Source: Pseudomonas sp. B6002 (GTDB lineage Bacteria; Pseudomonadota; Gammaproteobacteria; Pseudomonadales; Pseudomonadaceae). Taken from it: 64,000 nucleotides of DNA. Position 1 is the first letter of the stretch. Each line of letters begins with the position of its first letter. The notes beneath the pieces are model-generated. The model was not told the DNA's origin. It did not search any database and saw nothing but the letters and a program-made list of their open reading frames with translations. This document shows positions 10,167-18,504 of this stretch, piece by piece. Both the position numbers and the translations under genes were made by a program. The stretch is taken from the NCBI RefSeq assembly GCF_013385985.1, contig NZ_JACAOY010000035.1, forward strand, positions 27,449 to 91,448, read 5' to 3'.

Positions 10167-10285
10167 GGCGGCCTCCTGGACCGCGGAAGAGCACCTCCAG
10201 CGACGCTGGAGGGCGGCATTCGTCTTTCACTGAATGACGAAATATCTGACATCAAAAACCGAATCTGGTGCGCTTCAGACACAGG

Positions 10286-10302
10286 TTGAAACATCTGTTT
10301 CA
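10286..10302. promoter_or_regulatory. Inverted repeat TGAAAC-N4-GTTTCA
   Basis: Perfect 6-bp arms at 10287-10292 and 10297-10302, with an overlapping second inverted repeat GTTTC-AGAC-GAAAC at 10297-10310. It lies in the intergenic region between the divergent lipoprotein gene and the guanidine operon. Possible operator; the cognate regulator is unknown. Confidence 0.3.
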
Positions 10303-10415
10303 GACGAAACGGATGCTTCAACTCAGTGCGTCAGCGCACCAGCACAACGCACCAGCCTGCCCTGCCTGTTCTCGTGTATCGCGCAAACCCGCGATCTACA
10401 GGCGCGCCTGCCACT

Positions 10416-10430
10416 TGGCACGACTCTCGC
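10416..10430 (+). promoter_or_regulatory. Candidate sigma-54 promoter of the guanidine operon
   Basis: TGGCAC-N5-TCGC matches the -24/-12 consensus TGGCAC-N5-TTGC except for one base, with correct spacing. Transcription would start near 10441, giving a leader that begins about 48 bases before the riboswitch. Two direct GCACCA motifs (10336-10341 and 10349-10354), which match an NtrC half-site, lie about 90-105 bases upstream of that point. Nitrogen-controlled transcription would suit a guanidine-nitrogen operon, but this is inference from short motifs. Confidence 0.35.
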
Positions 10431-10488
10431 TTTGCCTCTGGCGTGCAGGATTGAAAACAGGTTCGCGGCACCACAATTTGCAATGGCC

Positions 10489-10582
10489 GACTAGGGTTCC
10501 GGCTCGCCAAAAGCGAGTGGCTGGTCCGAGAGTTGGCGACCTCCAGTTGAGGTTACACGGCGGGATAAAAGCCCGGGAGACA
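10489..10582 (+). ncRNA. Guanidine-I riboswitch (ykkC class, subtype 1)
   Basis: The conserved ykkC blocks are present in order: CTAGGGTTCCG at 10491, CTGGTCCGAGAG at 10521, then ACACGGCGGGATAAAAGCCC from 10555 running into GGGAGA. Between the second and third blocks is a variable hairpin with stem ACCTC/GAGGT (10539-10543 with 10549-10553). The class binds guanidinium and activates downstream genes. Here it precedes a guanidine-type ABC importer and carboxylase, as expected. No intrinsic terminator with a U-run lies between the aptamer and the start codon, so control of translation is more likely: CTCCAGTTGA at 10541-10550 inside the aptamer is the exact complement of TCAACTGGAG at 10625-10634, which contains the Shine-Dalgarno GGAG of the first gene. 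Confidence 0.93.
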
Positions 10583-10641
10583 AGTCACCGTTCACGGTGC
10601 CGCGTTGCTCCTGCTCGCCCTTGATCAACTGGAGAAGCCCC

Positions 10642-11709
10642 ATGCCCTCACTGCGTTTACCCGCCTTGCTCGCCGCCGCGTTTGCCGCCGTGCTGAGTGT
10701 CCAAACCCAAGCCGCCGCCAAAGACCACTTCAGCGTGTGCTGGACCATCTACGCCGGTTGGATGCCGTGGGAGTATGCCGGCAGCCAGGGCATCCTCGAC
10801 AAGTGGGCCAAGAAGTACGGCATCAAGATCGACATGGTGCAGCTCAATGACTATGTCGAGTCCATCAACCAGTACACCGCCGGCCAGTTCGACGGCTGCA
10901 CCATGACCAACATGGATGCGCTGACCATTCCCGCCGCAGGCGGTGTGGACAGCACCGCGCTGGTAGTCAGTGACTTTTCCAACGGCAACGATGGCGTGGT
11001 GATCAAGGGCACCGGCAAGACCGTGGCCGACCTCAAGGGCATGAACGTCAACCTGGTGGAGCTCTCCGTGTCCCACTACCTGCTGGCCCGCGCCCTGGAG
11101 TCGGCTGACCTCACGGAAAAAGACCTGAAGGTGGTCAACACCTCCGACGCCGACATTGCCGCCGCCTTCAATACCGATCAGGTGCAAGCCGTGACCACCT
11201 GGAACCCGATGCTCTCCGAGATCAAGGCCAAGCCCGGTGTCACCCAGGTGTTCGACTCCAGCAAAGTGCCTGGCGAAATCATGGACATGATGGTGGTCAA
11301 CACCCAGGTCCTGAAGGACAACCCGGCCCTGGGCAAGGCCCTCACCGGCGCCTGGTTTGAAACCGTCGCGCTGATGAACGCCAAGGGCGCCGCCAGCACC
11401 GAAGCCCTCGAACATATGGCCAAGGCCTCCGGCACCGACCTCAAAGGGTTCCAGGCACAACTGGACACCACCAAGCTGTTCGCCACGCCCAAGGAAGCCC
11501 TGGCGTTTGCCACCAGCGCGCAACTGCCGGCCACCATGCGCAAGGTCGCCGAGTTCTCGTTTGAGCACGGCCTGCTCGGCGAAGGCGCCAAGGACACCAG
11601 CGCCGTGGGCATGAGCTTTGCCAACGGCGTGACCAGCGGCGACACCGCCAACCTCAAGCTGCATTTCGACCCCCGCTACGTGCAGATGGCCGCCGACGGC
11701 ACGCTGTAA
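10642..11709 (+). CDS. ABC transporter substrate-binding protein, guanidine/urea-carboxylase-associated
   Basis: The 355-residue periplasmic receptor belongs to the NitT/TauT-like group that is annotated as a putative urea transporter beside urea carboxylase; in riboswitch-controlled operons guanidine is the likely ligand. A Sec signal peptide is visible (residues 1-26, ending TQAAA). The mature start DHFSVCWTIYAGWMPWEYA and the DGCTMTNMDAL segment are typical of this group. I chose the ATG at 10642 because GGAG lies 7 bases upstream and a signal peptide starts there; the frame extends further upstream through the leader. It is the first gene of a tightly spaced operon and the direct target of the riboswitch. 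Confidence 0.88.
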   Translation: MPSLRLPALLAAAFAAVLSVQTQAAAKDHFSVCWTIYAGWMPWEYAGSQGILDKWAKKYGIKIDMVQLNDYVESINQYTAGQFDGCTMTNMDALTIPAAGGVDSTALVVSDFSNGNDGVVIKGTGKTVADLKGMNVNLVELSVSHYLLARALESADLTEKDLKVVNTSDADIAAAFNTDQVQAVTTWNPMLSEIKAKPGVTQVFDSSKVPGEIMDMMVVNTQVLKDNPALGKALTGAWFETVALMNAKGAASTEALEHMAKASGTDLKGFQAQLDTTKLFATPKEALAFATSAQLPATMRKVAEFSFEHGLLGEGAKDTSAVGMSFANGVTSGDTANLKLHFDPRYVQMAADGTL

Positions 11710-11721
11710 GAGGACCCGGCC

Positions 11722-12537
11722 ATGCGCCTGATCAACCGTCACCCGGAACGCTCCAGCCGCCTGTTGTTGGTGCTGCTGCCGTTCGCCCTGCTGCTGTTCG
11801 CCTACTTCGTGGGCTCGGCCGAGCGACTGGCGGACAACCCCAACGACAAGCTGCTGCCCAGCGCCGTGCAAATGGGCGACGCCATAAAACGCCTGGCATT
11901 CAGTGCCGACGCGCGCACCGGTGAATACGTGCTGTGGCAAGACAGCGCGTCAAGCCTGCGCCGCCTGGGCATTGGCCTGGGCATCAGCGCCCTCGCTGGC
12001 CTGTGCCTGGGCATCGCGGCCGGCACCTTGCCGCTGTTCGGCGCGCCGCTGTCACCGTTGCTGACGGTGCTGTCGATGGTGCCGCCGCTGGCGATCCTGC
12101 CGATTCTATTCATCGTGTTCGGGCTGGGGGAGTTGTCCAAAGTGATGCTGATCGTGATCGGCATCACCCCGGCGCTGGCCCGCGACCTGGAACAACGTGC
12201 ACGGGAAATTCCCGTCGAGCTGCTGGTGAAAGCGCAGACACTCGGTGCCTCCACCTGGACCCTGATGCTGCGCGTGGTCTTGCCACAACTGCTGCCACGC
12301 CTGCTGATCTCGCTGCGGCTGATGCTGGGCTCGGCGTGGTTGTTCCTGATTGCGGCCGAGGCCATCGCTTCCACCGACGGTTTGGGCTACCGGATCTTCC
12401 TGGTGCGCCGCTACCTGGCGATGGACGTGATCTTGCCCTACGTGGTGTGGATCACCCTGCTCGCCTGGGTGATGGACTGGGGCCTCAAGGCCCTGACCCG
12501 ACGTGCGTTCCCCTGGTACGAAGGAGCGCGCTCATGA
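11722..12537 (+). CDS. ABC transporter permease, guanidine-type importer
   Basis: An inner-membrane permease of 271 residues. One N-terminal membrane segment (LLLVLLPFALLLFAYFVG) is followed by the BPD_transp_1 region with about five more segments. The EAA loop that contacts the ATPase is visible around LLVKAQTLGASTWTLMLRVVLPQLLPRLL. It starts 12 bases after the receptor gene behind a GAGGA box and overlaps the next gene by ATGA. Confidence 0.9.
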   Translation: MRLINRHPERSSRLLLVLLPFALLLFAYFVGSAERLADNPNDKLLPSAVQMGDAIKRLAFSADARTGEYVLWQDSASSLRRLGIGLGISALAGLCLGIAAGTLPLFGAPLSPLLTVLSMVPPLAILPILFIVFGLGELSKVMLIVIGITPALARDLEQRAREIPVELLVKAQTLGASTWTLMLRVVLPQLLPRLLISLRLMLGSAWLFLIAAEAIASTDGLGYRIFLVRRYLAMDVILPYVVWITLLAWVMDWGLKALTRRAFPWYEGARS

Positions 12538-13298
12538 GCTTTATCAGCGTCAACAATGTGTGGCAGCGCTATGGCGACCAGGTGGTGCTCGAAGGGCTCA
12601 ACCTGCACGTCAACGAAGGCGAGTTCTGCACCTTGGTCGGCACCTCCGGGTGTGGCAAGTCCACCTTCCTGCGCCTGCTGCTGGGCCAGGAAACCGCGAG
12701 CAAGGGCCAGATCCTGCTCGACGGCAACACCCTTGCCGCCGAACCGGACGCCAGCCGTGGCGTGGTGTTCCAGCGCTACTCGGTGTTCCCGCACTTGAGC
12801 GTACTCGACAACGTTGTCCTGGGCCTTGAACTGCCGCGCTCACGCGTCCTCGGGCGGCTATTGGGCAAGGCCAAGAAAGACGCCCGCGAACAGGCCGCCA
12901 TCCTGCTGCAAAAAGTCGGCCTCGGCCATGCGTTCGACAAGTACCCGGCGCAACTCTCCGGCGGCATGCAACAGCGCCTGGCAATCGCACAGGCACTGAT
13001 CATGAAACCCCGCGTCTTGCTGCTGGATGAACCCTTCGGCGCCCTCGACCCGGGCATTCGCAAAGACATGCACCAACTGCTGTTGGAACTGTGGCGCGAA
13101 ACCCGACTGACCGTGTTCATGGTCACCCACGACCTCAGCGAAGGTTTCAGCCTGGGCACCCGCCTGCTGGTATTCGACAAGGTCCGCGTCGACCCGCACG
13201 CCCCCGGCGCCTATGGCGCCCGCATCACCTACGACATCCCTTTGAACAGCGACCGCCGCAATGCGCTCGCCGCTGAACTTGGAGCGACTTCCAAATGA
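12534..13298 (+). CDS. ABC transporter ATP-binding protein, guanidine-type importer
   Basis: The 254-residue ATPase of the importer has Walker A GTSGCGKST near residue 38, the signature LSGGMQQRLAIAQAL, Walker B VLLLDEPFGALDPG and a switch His in FMVTHDLSEG. The start is the ATG in ATGA overlapping the permease stop with GGAG upstream; the frame stays open much further upstream only because of codon bias. It belongs to the nitrate/taurine-type ATPase family. Its stop also overlaps the following gene by ATGA, showing translational coupling along the operon. Confidence 0.93.
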   Translation: MSFISVNNVWQRYGDQVVLEGLNLHVNEGEFCTLVGTSGCGKSTFLRLLLGQETASKGQILLDGNTLAAEPDASRGVVFQRYSVFPHLSVLDNVVLGLELPRSRVLGRLLGKAKKDAREQAAILLQKVGLGHAFDKYPAQLSGGMQQRLAIAQALIMKPRVLLLDEPFGALDPGIRKDMHQLLLELWRETRLTVFMVTHDLSEGFSLGTRLLVFDKVRVDPHAPGAYGARITYDIPLNSDRRNALAAELGATSK

Positions 13299-14020
13299 CC
13301 GAATCCACCCACCTGTTCACCCCCTTCGCCGAGGAAATGCTCCCCGGTGGCGGCCACCGTTCCTTCGTGCTCAAGCGCGGCCAACTGTTGCGCCTTACCG
13401 ACCTGCGCGGTGGCGCCAACGTCAGCCTGACGTTGCTCAACGCCAACGAAAAAACCGAGCGCCTGAACCTGCCCGACAGCCTCAAATGCCAACACACCGC
13501 CAAGCTCACCGCGGGCCACTGCCTGTACTCGGACATGGGCCGCGTACTGGCTGCCATTACCGCCGACACCTGCGGCTGGAGTGACAGCATTGGCGGCGTG
13601 CTGTGCGCCGCCGAAGTCGCCGAAAAGTACGGCAAGGGCCGCTATCAGGAACTGCGCAACGGCTTCTTTCGCAACGGCACCGACAACCTGCTGGTGGAGC
13701 TGGGCAAATGGGGCCTGGGGCTGTCCGACCTGCTGATGACCCTCAACCTGTTCAGTCGCGTCAACGTGGACAGCGAGGGCGGTTTGCATTTCGTGCCGGG
13801 TAATTCCAAGGCCGGCGACTGCATCGAACTCTATGCGCCGATGGACACCCTGGTGGTGCTCACCGCCCTGCAACACCCGATGGACCCCAACCCCGACTAC
13901 GCGCCCCAACCGCTGAAACTCAGTTGGATGAACGCTGACCCCAGTGTCGCCGAACACTGCCGCACCTCGCGCCCGGAAAACGAGCGCGGCTTTATCAACA
14001 CCGACCGTCTGTTCGCCTGA
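13295..14020 (+). CDS. DUF1989 protein, carboxyguanidine deiminase subunit (urea carboxylase-associated)
   Basis: One of the two urea-carboxylase-associated DUF1989 proteins. Established work on guanidine catabolism assigns the pair (CgdA/CgdB) as a carboxyguanidine deiminase that turns the carboxylase product into allophanate. The 241-residue chain contains the family blocks ITADTCGWSDSIGG, NLFSRVNV and AGDCIELYAPMDTLVVL. It overlaps the ATPase gene by ATGA and precedes the second subunit by 9 bases. I do not assign A or B because the lettering cannot be settled from sequence alone. Confidence 0.87.
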   Translation: MTESTHLFTPFAEEMLPGGGHRSFVLKRGQLLRLTDLRGGANVSLTLLNANEKTERLNLPDSLKCQHTAKLTAGHCLYSDMGRVLAAITADTCGWSDSIGGVLCAAEVAEKYGKGRYQELRNGFFRNGTDNLLVELGKWGLGLSDLLMTLNLFSRVNVDSEGGLHFVPGNSKAGDCIELYAPMDTLVVLTALQHPMDPNPDYAPQPLKLSWMNADPSVAEHCRTSRPENERGFINTDRLFA

Positions 14021-14029
14021 GGAGCTGCC

Positions 14030-14665
14030 ATGTCTATCGCACTGAAACAACCGGATGCGGCCGTGTACCGCGCCACCATTCCCGCCGGTGAACCCTGGCT
14101 GATGGAGGTCAAGGCCGGGCAGACCCTGCGCATCCTCGACCTGGAAGGCAACCAGGCCGTCGACACGCTGTTCTACAGCGTCAAGAACCCGCGCGAACGC
14201 TACGACGTGCAACGCACGTTGCGTCGGCAGAACAGCGTGTACCTGGGCACCGGCAGCGTGCTGTATTCCAACCTCGGCCAGCCGATGCTGACCATCGTCG
14301 ACGACACCTGCGGGCGCCACGACACCCTCGGCGGCGCCTGCGCCCAGGAGAGCAACACCGTGCGCTACGCCCTGGAAAAACGCTACATGCACAGCTGCCG
14401 CGACAACTACCTGCGCGCCTGTGCCCACGACGGCCGGCTGGGTAAAGGCGACATCGGGCCGAACATCAATTTCTTCATGAATGTGCCGGTGACGGCCGAC
14501 GGCGGGCTGACCTTCGAAGACGGGATTTCCGCCCCCGGCAAGTACGTCGACCTGCGTGCGGAAATGGACGTGATCGTGCTGATCTCCAACTGCCCGCAAC
14601 TGAACAACCCGTGCAATGCGTACAACCCCACCCCTGCGGAGCTGCTGGTATGGAACAGAGATTAA
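14030..14665 (+). CDS. DUF1989 protein, second carboxyguanidine deiminase subunit
   Basis: 211 residues, paralogous to the gene before it and more strongly conserved in the presumed metal site: [25 protein letters not shown] and [18 protein letters not shown] supply the Cys and His residues typical of DUF1989. A GAGG box lies before the ATG. It should form a heteromeric deiminase with its neighbour. A 28-codon reading frame (14650-14736) overlaps its 3' end. Confidence 0.87.
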
Positions 14666-14740: not shown

Positions 14741-14825
14741 TGTAGGAGCCCGGCTTGCCGGCGATGGCGGCCTCAAAGTCGCCGCCTGGTTCAAGGCCCT
14801 CATCGCCGGCAAGCCGGCTCCTACG
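14741..14825. repeat. REP pair (REPIN), GTAGGAGC type
   Basis: The left arm TGTAGGAGCCCGGCTTGCCG and right arm GCCGGCAAGCCGGCTCCTAC are inverted around about 40 bases. It lies between the deiminase and carboxylase genes of the guanidine operon, and could stabilise or shorten the transcript there. Confidence 0.85.
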
Positions 14826-14910
14826 GTGGATCGCGTTCATTCCAGAGATTTGCGCCACGGACGACCTTGGCGCTTGAACCATTTTGCGGGACGGCCCGCA
14901 GGGTTTTGCC

Positions 14911-17900
14911 ATGTTCGAAAAAGTCTTGATCGCCAACCGTGGCGCCATCGCCTGCCGCATCCTGCGCACCTTGCGCGAGCTGCACGTCACAGGCGTCGCC
15001 GTGTATGCCGAAGCCGACGCGGCCAGCCTGCATATCCAGCAGGCCGACGAAGCCTATAGCCTTGGTGAAGGCGCGGCGGCGAACACTTACCTGGCGGTGG
15101 AGAAAATCCTCGCCGCTGCCAAGGCCACGGGTGCCCGGGCAATTCATCCGGGCTACGGGTTTCTTTCGGAAAACGCGGCGTTCGCCGAAGCCTGCGAAAA
15201 CGCCGGCATTGCCTTCATCGGTCCAACACCGGAGCAACTGCGAGTGTTCGGCCTCAAGCACACGGCGCGGGCCTTGGCCAAGAGGCATCAGATCCCGCTG
15301 CTGGAAGGCACCGAACTGCTGGACAGCCTTGAAGCCGCCTTGCTGGCCGCCGACAACGTGGGCTACCCGGTGATGCTCAAGAGCACCGCCGGCGGTGGCG
15401 GGATTGGCATGCGCGTGTGCCGCAGTGCAATGGAATTGAGCGAGTCCTTCGAGGCGGTCAAGCGTCTGGGGCAGAACAACTTCAGCGATGCCGGTGTGTT
15501 TATCGAGAAGTACATCGAGCACGCACGCCACCTGGAAGTGCAGGTATTCGGCGATGGCGCCGGTGAGGTCATTGCCCTTGGCGTGCGCGACTGTTCGGTG
15601 CAGCGGCGCAACCAGAAAGTCCTCGAAGAAACCCCTGCACCGAACTTGCCTGACGGCATGGCAGACGCCTTGTGCGCGGCGGCTATCACCCTGGCAAAAG
15701 CCGTGAACTACCGCAGTGCCGGCACCGTGGAATTTATCTTCGACAGTGCCGACGGACGCTTCTATTTCCTCGAAGTGAACACGCGCCTGCAGGTGGAACA
15801 CGGCGTCACCGAACAGGTGTGGGGCGTGGACCTGGTGCGCTGGATGGTGCAACTGGCGGCGGGAGAAATGCCGCCGCTGAGTGAGTTGGAGTTAACGCCT
15901 CAGGGCCATGCCATTCAGGCGCGCCTGTACGCAGAAGACCCCGGCCGGGATTTCCAGCCCAGCCCTGGCTTGTTGACCCAGGTAGAGTTTCCGGTGGCCG
16001 AGTGTTTGCGAATCGACACTTGGGTCGAGGCCGGTTGCGAGATCCCGCCCTACTTCGATCCGATGATCGCCAAGCTCATCACCTGGGCGCCCACCCGCGA
16101 ACAGGCGCGCCTGGCCCTGCATCAGGCACTCAACGACAGCCAGCTGTACGGCGTGGAAACCAACCGCGACTACCTGCGCCAGATCCTGCTCGCGGCGCCC
16201 TTCGCCAGTGGCCGGCCATGGACACGTTGCCTGGAAGGTTTGGTCTACACCGCCGACACGTTCGAGGTACTCAGCGCCGGTACCCAGACCAGCGTGCAGG
16301 ACTACCCCGGTCGTCTCGGTTACTGGGCCGTGGGCGTGCCGCCATCGGGGCCGATGGACAGCCGTGCACTGCGCCTGGGCAACCGCCTGCTGGGCAACAG
16401 CGAAGGCGCCGCCGCCTTGGAAATTACCATGAGCGGGCCACTGCTGCGCTTCAACTGTGCGGCGGTGGTTGCCGTCACCGGGGCTGAAATCCCGCTGTTG
16501 CTGGATGATCAAGCGGTGCCGATGAACACCGCATTGCTGATCCCGGCCGGGTCGGTGTTGAGCCTCGGCACGATCGCCGGTGCCGGTGCGCGCAGCTACC
16601 TGTGCCTGCGCGGCGGGTTGCAGGTGCCGGACTACCTGGGCAGCAAGAGCACCTTCACCCTCGGGCAGTTTGGTGGGCACGGCGGACGGGCGTTGCGGGC
16701 CGGGGATGTGCTGCACCTGCTGCCGTTGCAGGACACCAGTGCCGGGCAACAGATTGTCCCAGAGCCCTTGCCAGACGTGCGCCGGATCCGGGTGATCTAC
16801 GGCCCACACGGCGCGCCGGAATACTTCCTGCCCGCGTACATCGACACCTTCTTCGCCACTCAATGGGAAGTGCATTTCAACTCCAGCCGCACCGGCGTGC
16901 GGTTGATTGGGCCCAAGCCATTGTGGGCACGCACGGATGGCGGTGAAGCCGGCCTGCACCCGTCGAATATCCATGACAACCCCTACGCCATCGGCGCGGT
17001 GGATTTCACCGGGGACATGCCGGTGATCCTCGGGCCGGATGGCCCAAGCCTGGGCGGCTTCGTGTGCCCGGTCACGGTGATCGAGGCCGACCTCTGGCAA
17101 TTGGGCCAGCTCAAGGCCGGCGATAAAATCCGCTTCGAGCCGGTCGATCTACCCACCGCCCGCCACTTCGCCTTGGAATGGACCACCTGTAGGAGCCGGC
17201 TTGCCGGCGATGACATTCTCAAGGGCGCCATCGCCGGCAAGCCGGGCTCCTACAGGTCTCCTGTGGTGCTCGATAGGGGTGAAGGCAGCACTCGCCTGGT
17301 CGCGCGCCTCGCCGGCGACACGCACCTGCTGCTGGAAATCGGCGCGCCCGAACTGGACCTGGTGCTGCGCTTCCGCGCCCACGCCTTGATGCAAGCGCTG
17401 GAAGCCCGTGCCCTGCATGGCGTGATCGACCTGACGCCCGGCATCCGCTCGCTGCAAATCCACTACCAACCCGAGCAACTGCCCCTGGCCGAGTTGCTCA
17501 CGCTAATCGCCAGCGAATGGACCGCCGTGTGCGCCACGCCAAACCTGCAAGTGCCATCGCGCATCGTGCACCTGCCACTGTCGTGGGACGACCCGGCGTG
17601 CCAGCTGGCCATCGAAAAATACATGACCACCGTGCGCAAGGACGCGCCGTGGTGCCCGAGCAACCTGGAGTTCATCCGCCGCATCAATGACCTGGCCACT
17701 CTCGATGAAGTGCGCCACACGGTGTTCGATGCCAGCTACCTGGTGATGGGCCTGGGCGACGTCTACCTTGGCGCCCCGGTGGCCACGCCGCTGGACCCGC
17801 GTCATCGCCTGGTGACCACCAAGTACAACCCGGCGCGCACCTGGACCGCGGAAAACTCGGTGGGCATCGGCGGCGCTTACTTGTGTGTGTATGGCATGGA

Positions 17901-18504
17901 AGGTCCGGGGGGGTATCAGTTTGTGGGGCGCACCTTGCAGATGTGGAACCGCTATCGCGAAGTGGCGGCGTTCGACGGCAAGCCGTGGTTGTTGCGCTTC
18001 TTTGACCAGATCCGGTTCCACCCGGTGAGTGCTGAGGAGTTGCTGCGTATTCGTCGCGACTTCCCGCTGGGGCGCTATGACCTGACTATCGAGCAGAGCC
18101 AGTTGAACCTGGCGGATTACCAGACCTTTTTGACGCGCGAAGCCTCGGGCATTGACGCGTTCCGCACGCAACAGCAGCAGGCGTTCAACGCCGAGCGCGA
18201 ACGCTGGATCGCCAGCGGCCAGGCGCATTTCGACAGCGAGGAACTGGCGGCACCGCAGGCTGCGGACACACCGTTGCAGGCCAACGAGCACAGCATCGAC
18301 AGCCCTATCGCGGGCAACCTCTGGCAGGTTCAGGTGGTGACAGGTGAACGCGTGTCGGCGGGGGATGTGCTGGTGATTCTGGAGTCGATGAAAATGGAGA
18401 TCCCGGTGCTGGCGCCGTTTGCCGGCGTGGTACGGGAAATCCCGGTGCAACCGGGCAGTGGCATCGGCGCCGGCCAACGGGTCGTGGTGCTGGAACGGGA
18501 CTGA
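14911..18504 (+). CDS. Biotin-dependent guanidine/urea carboxylase
   Basis: ATP- and bicarbonate-dependent carboxylation of guanidine (or urea) using a covalently bound biotin. The 1197 residues read, in order: biotin carboxylase ATP-grasp (residues 1 to ~450; KSTAGGGGIGM near 154, EVNTRLQVEHG near 288), a KipA/AHS2-type carboxyltransferase half (~455-745), a KipI/AHS1-type half (~785-1010), and a biotinyl domain (~1125-1197) with the biotin Lys1161 in ESMKME. The start MFEKVLIANRG is the standard biotin carboxylase start with AGGG upstream. A 72-bp REP pair (17186-17257) is translated in frame as residues ~759-783 at the junction between the AHS2 and AHS1 halves. The riboswitch and the DUF1989 partners favour guanidine as substrate. 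No allophanate hydrolase follows. Confidence 0.9.
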   Translation: MFEKVLIANRGAIACRILRTLRELHVTGVAVYAEADAASLHIQQADEAYSLGEGAAANTYLAVEKILAAAKATGARAIHPGYGFLSENAAFAEACENAGIAFIGPTPEQLRVFGLKHTARALAKRHQIPLLEGTELLDSLEAALLAADNVGYPVMLKSTAGGGGIGMRVCRSAMELSESFEAVKRLGQNNFSDAGVFIEKYIEHARHLEVQVFGDGAGEVIALGVRDCSVQRRNQKVLEETPAPNLPDGMADALCAAAITLAKAVNYRSAGTVEFIFDSADGRFYFLEVNTRLQVEHGVTEQVWGVDLVRWMVQLAAGEMPPLSELELTPQGHAIQARLYAEDPGRDFQPSPGLLTQVEFPVAECLRIDTWVEAGCEIPPYFDPMIAKLITWAPTREQARLALHQALNDSQLYGVETNRDYLRQILLAAPFASGRPWTRCLEGLVYTADTFEVLSAGTQTSVQDYPGRLGYWAVGVPPSGPMDSRALRLGNRLLGNSEGAAALEITMSGPLLRFNCAAVVAVTGAEIPLLLDDQAVPMNTALLIPAGSVLSLGTIAGAGARSYLCLRGGLQVPDYLGSKSTFTLGQFGGHGGRALRAGDVLHLLPLQDTSAGQQIVPEPLPDVRRIRVIYGPHGAPEYFLPAYIDTFFATQWEVHFNSSRTGVRLIGPKPLWARTDGGEAGLHPSNIHDNPYAIGAVDFTGDMPVILGPDGPSLGGFVCPVTVIEADLWQLGQLKAGDKIRFEPVDLPTARHFALEWTTCRSRLAGDDILKGAIAGKPGSYRSPVVLDRGEGSTRLVARLAGDTHLLLEIGAPELDLVLRFRAHALMQALEARALHGVIDLTPGIRSLQIHYQPEQLPLAELLTLIASEWTAVCATPNLQVPSRIVHLPLSWDDPACQLAIEKYMTTVRKDAPWCPSNLEFIRRINDLATLDEVRHTVFDASYLVMGLGDVYLGAPVATPLDPRHRLVTTKYNPARTWTAENSVGIGGAYLCVYGMEGPGGYQFVGRTLQMWNRYREVAAFDGKPWLLRFFDQIRFHPVSAEELLRIRRDFPLGRYDLTIEQSQLNLADYQTFLTREASGIDAFRTQQQQAFNAERERWIASGQAHFDSEELAAPQAADTPLQANEHSIDSPIAGNLWQVQVVTGERVSAGDVLVILESMKMEIPVLAPFAGVVREIPVQPGSGIGAGQRVVVLERD
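17186..17257. repeat. REP pair inside the carboxylase coding sequence, in frame
   Basis: The left arm ACCTGTAGGAGCCGGCTTGC and right arm GCAAGCCGGGCTCCTACAGG are inverted around a 30-base centre. Total 72 bases, exactly 24 codons with no stop, so the carboxylase frame is kept; the insert encodes roughly CRSRLAGDDILK...AGKPGSYRS. All other REP elements in the window are between genes. Confidence 0.9.

Follow-up and report, generated by a model that had tools for sequence, protein, structure and literature searches.

Guanidine-I riboswitches usually act as transcriptional ON switches, according to the accessible part of PMC12186494, and for the Gd-I element of V. boliviensis an intrinsic terminator is presumed in the available portion of PMC12508155. 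The former source, to the same extent, also reports operons of enterobacteria in which Guanidine-I sits at the importer gene and Guanidine-II at that of the carboxylase, which is the arrangement of the locus described here. Pseudomonadota favour translational platforms in general, as stated in the available section of PMC12452182. No Guanidine-I riboswitch that masks a Shine-Dalgarno (SD) sequence is described in the portions available of PMC12186494, PMC12508155, PMC12452182 and PMC10907184; the founding papers (Nelson 2017, Reiss 2017, Battaglia 2017, Barrick 2004) were outside the search and may mention it.

The locus lies in a 64,000-nucleotide stretch of DNA from Pseudomonas sp. B6002, the whole of which is termed the window. 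We think it likely, with good confidence, that its Guanidine-I riboswitch has a translational expression platform and is an ON switch, probably a kinetic (co-transcriptional) one, in which the SD strand invades the P2 hairpin. The features concerned are as follows.

10480..10581, + strand: full-length Guanidine-I riboswitch aptamer (RF00442; 98.6 bits by cmscan against a gathering score of 63, covering model positions 1-107 of 107)
10538..10554, + strand: P2 hairpin (ON state), stem 10538-10543/10549-10554 and loop CAGTT 10544-10548 (Rfam structure projected on the window)
10541..10550, + strand: putative anti-SD strand CTCCAGTTGA (OFF state; exact complement, fold, covariation at two loop positions)
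10559..10564, + strand: P3 5' strand and neighbours, OFF-fold partner 10614-10619 (minimum-free-energy, MFE, fold)
10562..10574, + strand: P3 stem 10562-10564/10572-10574 (Rfam structure)
10575..10579, + strand: aptamer 3' tail GGGAG, OFF-fold partner CTCCT 10608-10612 (MFE fold)
10586..10599, + strand: short hairpin CACCG/CGGTG in the leader, between the aptamer and the SD (MFE folds of the full RNA and of the leader alone)
10625..10634, + strand: SD strand TCAACTGGAG with SD core GGAG 10631-10634 (complement, fold)
10642..11709, + strand: substrate-binding protein of an ABC importer, first gene (570.8 bits to TIGR03427 'putative urea ABC transporter', cut-off 333.9)
11722..12537, + strand: ABC permease of the same operon (ORF; related to TauC/SsuC permeases, below their cut-offs)
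12534..13298, + strand: ABC ATP-binding protein (profile match 12552-13295; start read from the ORF)
13295..14665, + strand: UAAP1 13295-14020 (TIGR03425, 324.8 bits) and UAAP2 14030-14665 (TIGR03424, 340.7 bits), both over cut-off
14853..14899, + strand: Guanidine-II riboswitch (RF01068), within this operon (38.8 bits against a gathering score of 32)
14911..18504, + strand: urea/guanidine carboxylase (TIGR02712, 1870.9 bits)

The aptamer is 5' of genes for guanidine transport and metabolism (TIGR03427, UAAP1, UAAP2 and urea/guanidine carboxylase), and the substrate of the TIGR03427 importer, whose binding protein belongs to the urea-carboxylase-associated type, is here probably guanidine. UAAP1 and UAAP2 form a carboxyguanidine-deaminase-like pair, a role given in the accessible part of PMC12186494. 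The Guanidine-II element lies directly before the carboxylase gene, and a second one is found on another contig of the genome. Between UAAP2 and Guanidine-II, at 14742-14825 of the window, an inverted repeat of the GTAGGAGCCGGCTTGCCGGC type was read by eye, which we take to be REP-like. The operon lacks a gene for allophanate hydrolase, the enzyme with which the pathway should be completed; the only match over cut-off is on contig C48 of genome G000 (583297-584970, 815 bits).

An earlier note on this DNA had called the element a Guanidine-I riboswitch, an identification secured by the full-length 98.6-bit match, and had proposed a perfect 10-nucleotide anti-SD within its variable hairpin. The two strands, CTCCAGTTGA and TCAACTGGAG, are indeed exact reverse complements, and neither 10-mer has a second copy on the + strand of the window. 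The Rfam alignment places the anti-SD strand in P2, as three nucleotides of the 5' arm, all five of the loop and two of the 3' arm; the loop nucleotides are without a partner in the Rfam aptamer secondary structure. The note's spacing is also correct, since 7 nt separate GGAG 10631-10634 from the importer ATG at 10642-10644, which comes 60 nt after the aptamer end. Among 5000 dinucleotide shuffles of the 60-nt leader, 0.76% contained a perfect complement to the aptamer of 10 nt or longer, a figure computed before requiring the complement to fall on the SD. An intrinsic terminator between aptamer and gene, the mark of the transcriptional form, is lacking as the note had said, with 0 terminator-like sites in the leader region scanned (10230-10720). 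By comparison, the marks of a translational riboswitch are a predicted alternative fold in which the SD pairs with an aptamer strand, which is found here, and conservation of that pairing, which is found in orthologues.

In the unconstrained MFE fold of 10480-10643, helix A (10541-10550/10625-10634) is formed perfectly and the SD is masked. Nested inside it, 10559-10564 pairs with 10614-10619 and 10574-10579 with 10608-10613, and P1 is present in both this and the Rfam aptamer fold. Because of helix A and the nested pairings, the second half of the leader nearly complements, in the modelled fold, the aptamer half that contains P2 and P3. The predicted probability that the SD is unpaired is 0.003 in the full RNA, 0.23 when the leader is folded by itself and 0.32 when the aptamer is shuffled, with corresponding medians of 0.003, 0.26 and 0.29 over 128 pseudomonad loci and 0.21, 0.30 and 0.30 over 93 other loci (21 of 242 loci were dropped as having no near start). 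The probability of SD pairing with the aptamer is above 0.5 at 114 of the 128 pseudomonad and 67 of the 93 other loci, and below 0.15 in L002, L003, L005, L025, L103, L104, L106 and L110. That the SD is only partly open in the leader alone counts against the switch model, and a strict pattern (below 0.25 in the full RNA, above 0.5 in the leader alone) is seen at only 1/128 pseudomonad and 5/93 other loci.

The full RNA has an ensemble energy of -72.8 kcal/mol, with -38.9 for the aptamer and -18.4 for the leader folded apart. By nearest-neighbour energies the OFF fold of the window lies ∼15.6 kcal/mol below the ON fold, and the median gap is 17.3 over the 128 pseudomonad loci and 13.2 over the 93 others. 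A gap of ∼15.6 kcal/mol is more than ligand binding is expected to close at equilibrium. An equilibrium thermodynamic two-state switch is thus ruled out in the model, and kinetic control, decided during transcription, must be assumed. In folds of the growing RNA, P2 has a probability of ∼0.9 or more until 10630 has been made and is absent from 10635, whereas P3 stands at 0.79 at 10615 and is lost (0.01) at 10620, having also dipped at 10590-10595 (0.40, 0.06) and returned at 10600. These simulated prefixes suggest that guanidine could lock the aptamer during some 35-40 nt of transcription after its completion. The two-state, SD-covering switch of the earlier note is supported: the SD is covered in the unconstrained fold, and folds, conservation and the swap tests given below support the pairing. 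It is refined in two points, in that further leader segments also break P3 and in that the choice between states would be made during transcription.

We propose the following sequence of events. In the absence of guanidine, the emerging leader would undergo strand exchange with the aptamer; 10608-10619 would pair initially with the aptamer tail and the P3 5' strand, breaking the ligand-binding half, and the SD strand 10625-10634 would then enter through the P2 loop and displace the P2 hairpin. The SD strand would end buried in a 10-bp helix, with the importer gene off and the rest of the operon probably also off, through translational coupling or Rho. If guanidine were bound early, P1, P2 and P3 would be locked, the SD strand would be left without a partner and translation could start. 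We infer the dependence on ligand, the ON sign, the kinetic nature and the effect on downstream genes, and the folds indicate that in this pseudomonad locus the ribosome-binding site is probably masked when guanidine is lacking.

The pairing, its predicted folds, its conservation and its covariation come directly from computation. Of 200 genomes from the genus, 111 have RF00442 matches, at 134 places in all, and all 134 were retrieved for leader comparison. Alignment A1 comprises 86 of 118 distinct pseudomonad leaders, the 32 outside being mostly paralogues with other P2 types; A1 also omits five CTCCTTCG-type leaders (L098, L113, L116, L117 and L122) while four others of the type are kept. 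L144 is a second copy of the L082 locus, and genomes G054, G063, G078, G166, G177 and G194, all pseudomonad, carry three Guanidine-I copies each, those of G177 within ∼6 kb.

The earlier note had named a pairing that failed to be conserved or to covary as grounds for abandoning its reading, and the leaders compared here do not refute it in this way. In A1, 92.3% of 847 cells of helix A are paired, versus 22-43% after the strands are shifted by one to three columns. Both sides are changed in 17 cells versus 3.6 in shuffled alignments, exceeding all 500 shuffles, and 0/500 shuffles reached the covariation score. Compensatory changes fall at two P2 loop positions (U-A to A-U in 16 rows, G-C to A-U in L018). 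Since 15 of the 16 A-U rows belong to one clade, with L034 elsewhere in the tree, the independent compensatory events are few. Neither the number of helix A pairs with a double change (107/500) nor further pair types (487/500) is above shuffles. Complementarity is lost in L042 and has one mismatch in L081, and other P2 types maintain pairing in different ways, such as CTCC-TTCGAG with CTCGAACTGGAG plus a two-base bulge. Perfect stretches of at least 8 nt between the P2 5' arm/loop and the SD region are present in 14 of 29 non-redundant pseudomonad leaders (0.1 expected). When SD partners were swapped among 23 distinct P2 segments in Pseudomonas (7 of 130 rows dropped beforehand), 6/20,000 permutations were as good as the native mean, although within the window's own P2 class own SDs are no better than swapped ones (-14.9 versus -15.2).

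The second OFF helix, between the aptamer tail/P3 strand and the leader, is moderately supported. In A1, the P3 5' strand helix (10559-10564/10614-10619) has 95.3% of cells paired, with mostly one-sided G-C/G-U variation, and the tail helix 97.3%. The grading is no higher because complement lengths in Pseudomonas are not clearly above chance, at 5 nt or more being found in 8 of 29 leaders for the tail (10.3 expected) and in 15 of 29 for the P3 5' strand (9.8 expected).

Wider leaders came from the order (244 genomes, 70 of them with matches), leaving out three rows below the family cut-off, and from the class (369 genomes, 29 of them with matches); the wider non-redundant set reduces 274 loci to 142. 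For the swap test outside the genus, 93 leaders, of which 6 were unparsed, were reduced by removal of redundancy to 67, where native P2/SD pairs average -12.4 versus -10.6 for swapped pairs (0/20,000 permutations), with a median rank of the native partner of only 0.28. Perfect stretches of at least 7 nt between the P2 5' arm/loop and the SD region occur in 9/82 other gammaproteobacterial (1.1 expected) and 2/13 betaproteobacterial leaders (0.2 expected), and in 0/9 of Alphaproteobacteria and 0/9 of Bacillota. A second element, often GTGTAACC, complements the P2 3' arm and J2/3 (GGTTACAC); with at least 7 perfect nt it is found in 13/67 leaders outside the genus versus 0.8 expected. In Pseudomonas it is not enriched at 5 nt (16/128 versus 25.7) or 6 nt (4 versus 5.5), and at 7 nt it occurs in 4/128 versus 1.0. 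The final base of the aptamer tail co-varies with the leader across proteobacteria, GGAGA occurring with TCTC in 18 rows and with CCTC in 4, and GGAGG with TCTC in 4 and with CCTC in 19 (Fisher p 2e-5, calculated without regard to relatedness from the 45 rows out of 124 that enter the table).

A pattern scan of named genomes gave at least 118 stretches, 80 with titles, and 67 of 78 named sites were analysed. Among the matches listed, the closest named leader is that of Pseudomonas veronii (L353). Terminators were flagged, among these matches, in Bacillota 9/9, Alphaproteobacteria 4/11, Betaproteobacteria 2/15, Pseudomonas 0/8, other Gammaproteobacteria 1/11, Cyanobacteria 1/8, Actinomycetota 1/3 and others 0/2. 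The probability of SD pairing with the aptamer exceeds 0.5, again among the matches listed, in Bacillota 0/9, Alphaproteobacteria 0/11, Betaproteobacteria 13/15, Pseudomonas 6/8, other Gammaproteobacteria 7/11, Cyanobacteria 3/8, Actinomycetota 3/3 and others 2/2. Extension of SD masking to Alphaproteobacteria was rejected on this count of 0/11, and extension to Vreelandella was likewise rejected, the compared loci including no named Vreelandella.

We lean, by a modest degree, towards a general reading in which beta- and gammaproteobacterial Guanidine-I riboswitches are mainly translational, the SD region mirroring the P2-J2/3 half of the aptamer in registers that differ by lineage, and the terminator form is the rule in Bacillota only. 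The registers would be the P2 5' arm and loop in Pseudomonas, the P2 arm together with GTGTAACC opposite GGTTACAC in other gammaproteobacteria, the P2 3' arm/J2-3 in several Burkholderiales and the aptamer 5' flank in two Halomonadaceae.

Individual loci add further observations. In L247, L307, L351 and other Burkholderiales, the SD TGGAGCC apparently complements GGCTCCA of the aptamer (P2 3' arm and J2/3), and in the Halomonadaceae L246 and L349 the SD CCATTGGAG stands opposite the aptamer 5' flank TCCAATGG, a different SD-masking register. The Rhizobiales leaders L250, L292, L296 and L322 contain GGGATTGGC...GCCGATCCC followed by T-runs and also an SD complement, CCCTTTTT with AAAAGGGG; judged from these motifs, their hairpin is perhaps both a terminator and a local SD mask. 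At loci without the importer binding-protein gene, the riboswitch-controlled SD and ATG start an ORF of 18-32 aa before the permease or UAAP. In 13 of them (L013, L072, L073, L078, L142, L168, L202, L222, L224, L225, L315, L328 and L332) the P2/SD duplexes range from -13.8 to -21.1 kcal/mol; L231, L329 and L335 have similar short ORFs but weak duplexes (-5.8 to -8.0). The short-ORF stop overlaps the next start in L202/L315 and L222/L224/L225, which suggests translational coupling to the next gene there.

Could the complementarity be a by-product, the P2 5' arm being CCTCC-like for aptamer reasons and pairing with any SD to no regulatory end? GACCTC of P2 is invariant across the A1 leaders, SDs are purine-rich everywhere, and the window's P2 class does no better than swaps. 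However, nucleotides of the loop, which the aptamer secondary structure leaves unpaired, covary with those flanking the SD, the swap tests favour native pairs both in Pseudomonas and outside the genus, and the folds are without such pairing in Bacillota (0/9) and Alphaproteobacteria (0/11) among the matches listed. We regard the by-product explanation as very improbable. Rho-dependent control, in which the masked SD or an exposed C-rich leader would let Rho stop transcription, with translation and termination coupled, could draw on the C-rich leader at 10603-10624 and on the coupling of Rho to translational riboswitches noted in the accessible parts of PMC7266159 and PMC12508155. It would need the same SD switch upstream, adding to the translational platform rather than replacing it, and as an alternative we hold it to be improbable.

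Transcription attenuation, in which the P3-tail/leader hairpin would terminate transcription intrinsically in the manner of Bacillus and the SD pairing would be secondary, would agree with what PMC12186494 and PMC12508155, as far as available, respectively report as usual for Guanidine-I and presume in Vreelandella. U-runs follow a GGCGG/CCGCC stem in the alignment of the pseudomonad TAG clade, and a hairpin-plus-T-run heuristic flags 7/135 Pseudomonas and 11/107 other loci. The window leader, however, has no terminator-like site, the sequence after the stem being CCCTTGATC and not a U-run, and 128/135 Pseudomonas loci are unflagged versus 9/9 flagged among the analysed Bacillota in the matches listed. 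We consider attenuation an unlikely account of this locus; from its leader sequences, the pseudomonad TAG-loop clade may combine both modes, with possible weak terminators. The pairing conserved in relatives instead suggests that translation is the controlled step, and not the transcription stop usual in accounts of Guanidine-I.

Our preferred reading, a translational ON switch working by invasion of P2, shares with transcriptional Guanidine-I riboswitches (ykkC subtype 1, RF00442, B. subtilis type) the aptamer, by covariance model, the ON logic and the downstream genes for guanidine transport or degradation. It differs in its output: the B. subtilis-type form lets RNA polymerase escape an intrinsic terminator, whereas the window locus has no terminator and its SD pairs with P2. 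Guanidine-II (mini-ykkC, RF01068) has the ligand in common and is a translational ON switch that unmasks an SD (PMC12186494 and PMC9561414, available portions), but its aptamer consists of two hairpins unrelated to Guanidine-I. In the P. aeruginosa Guanidine-II riboswitch a flanking P0 helix is believed, in the text available, to mask the SD, whereas in the Guanidine-I of the window it would be masked by an inner aptamer hairpin. Strand-exchange translational riboswitches (group 3 in the accessible part of PMC10907184) likewise have an aptamer and an expression strand in competition, probably co-transcriptionally; at the window locus, invasion would begin in the loop of a hairpin inside the aptamer rather than at the closing P1 helix.

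Against the literature to the extent available, SD-masking strand exchange is apparently new for Guanidine-I, translational platforms in Pseudomonadota being already known. The surprise is moderate because riboswitches of Pseudomonadota are known to favour such platforms (PMC12452182, available section), and it concerns a class that a 2025 review and a 2025 study, in their accessible text, describe as (presumably) transcriptional. If the proposal is true, many proteobacterial guanidine-assimilation operons would be under two translational switches, with Gd-I acting on the importer and Gd-II on the carboxylase, and not one of each kind. Two phyla would then have coupled a single aptamer to different outputs, terminators in the one and the SD in the other, a clean comparative system for which natural compensatory P2/SD variants exist to compare the wiring.
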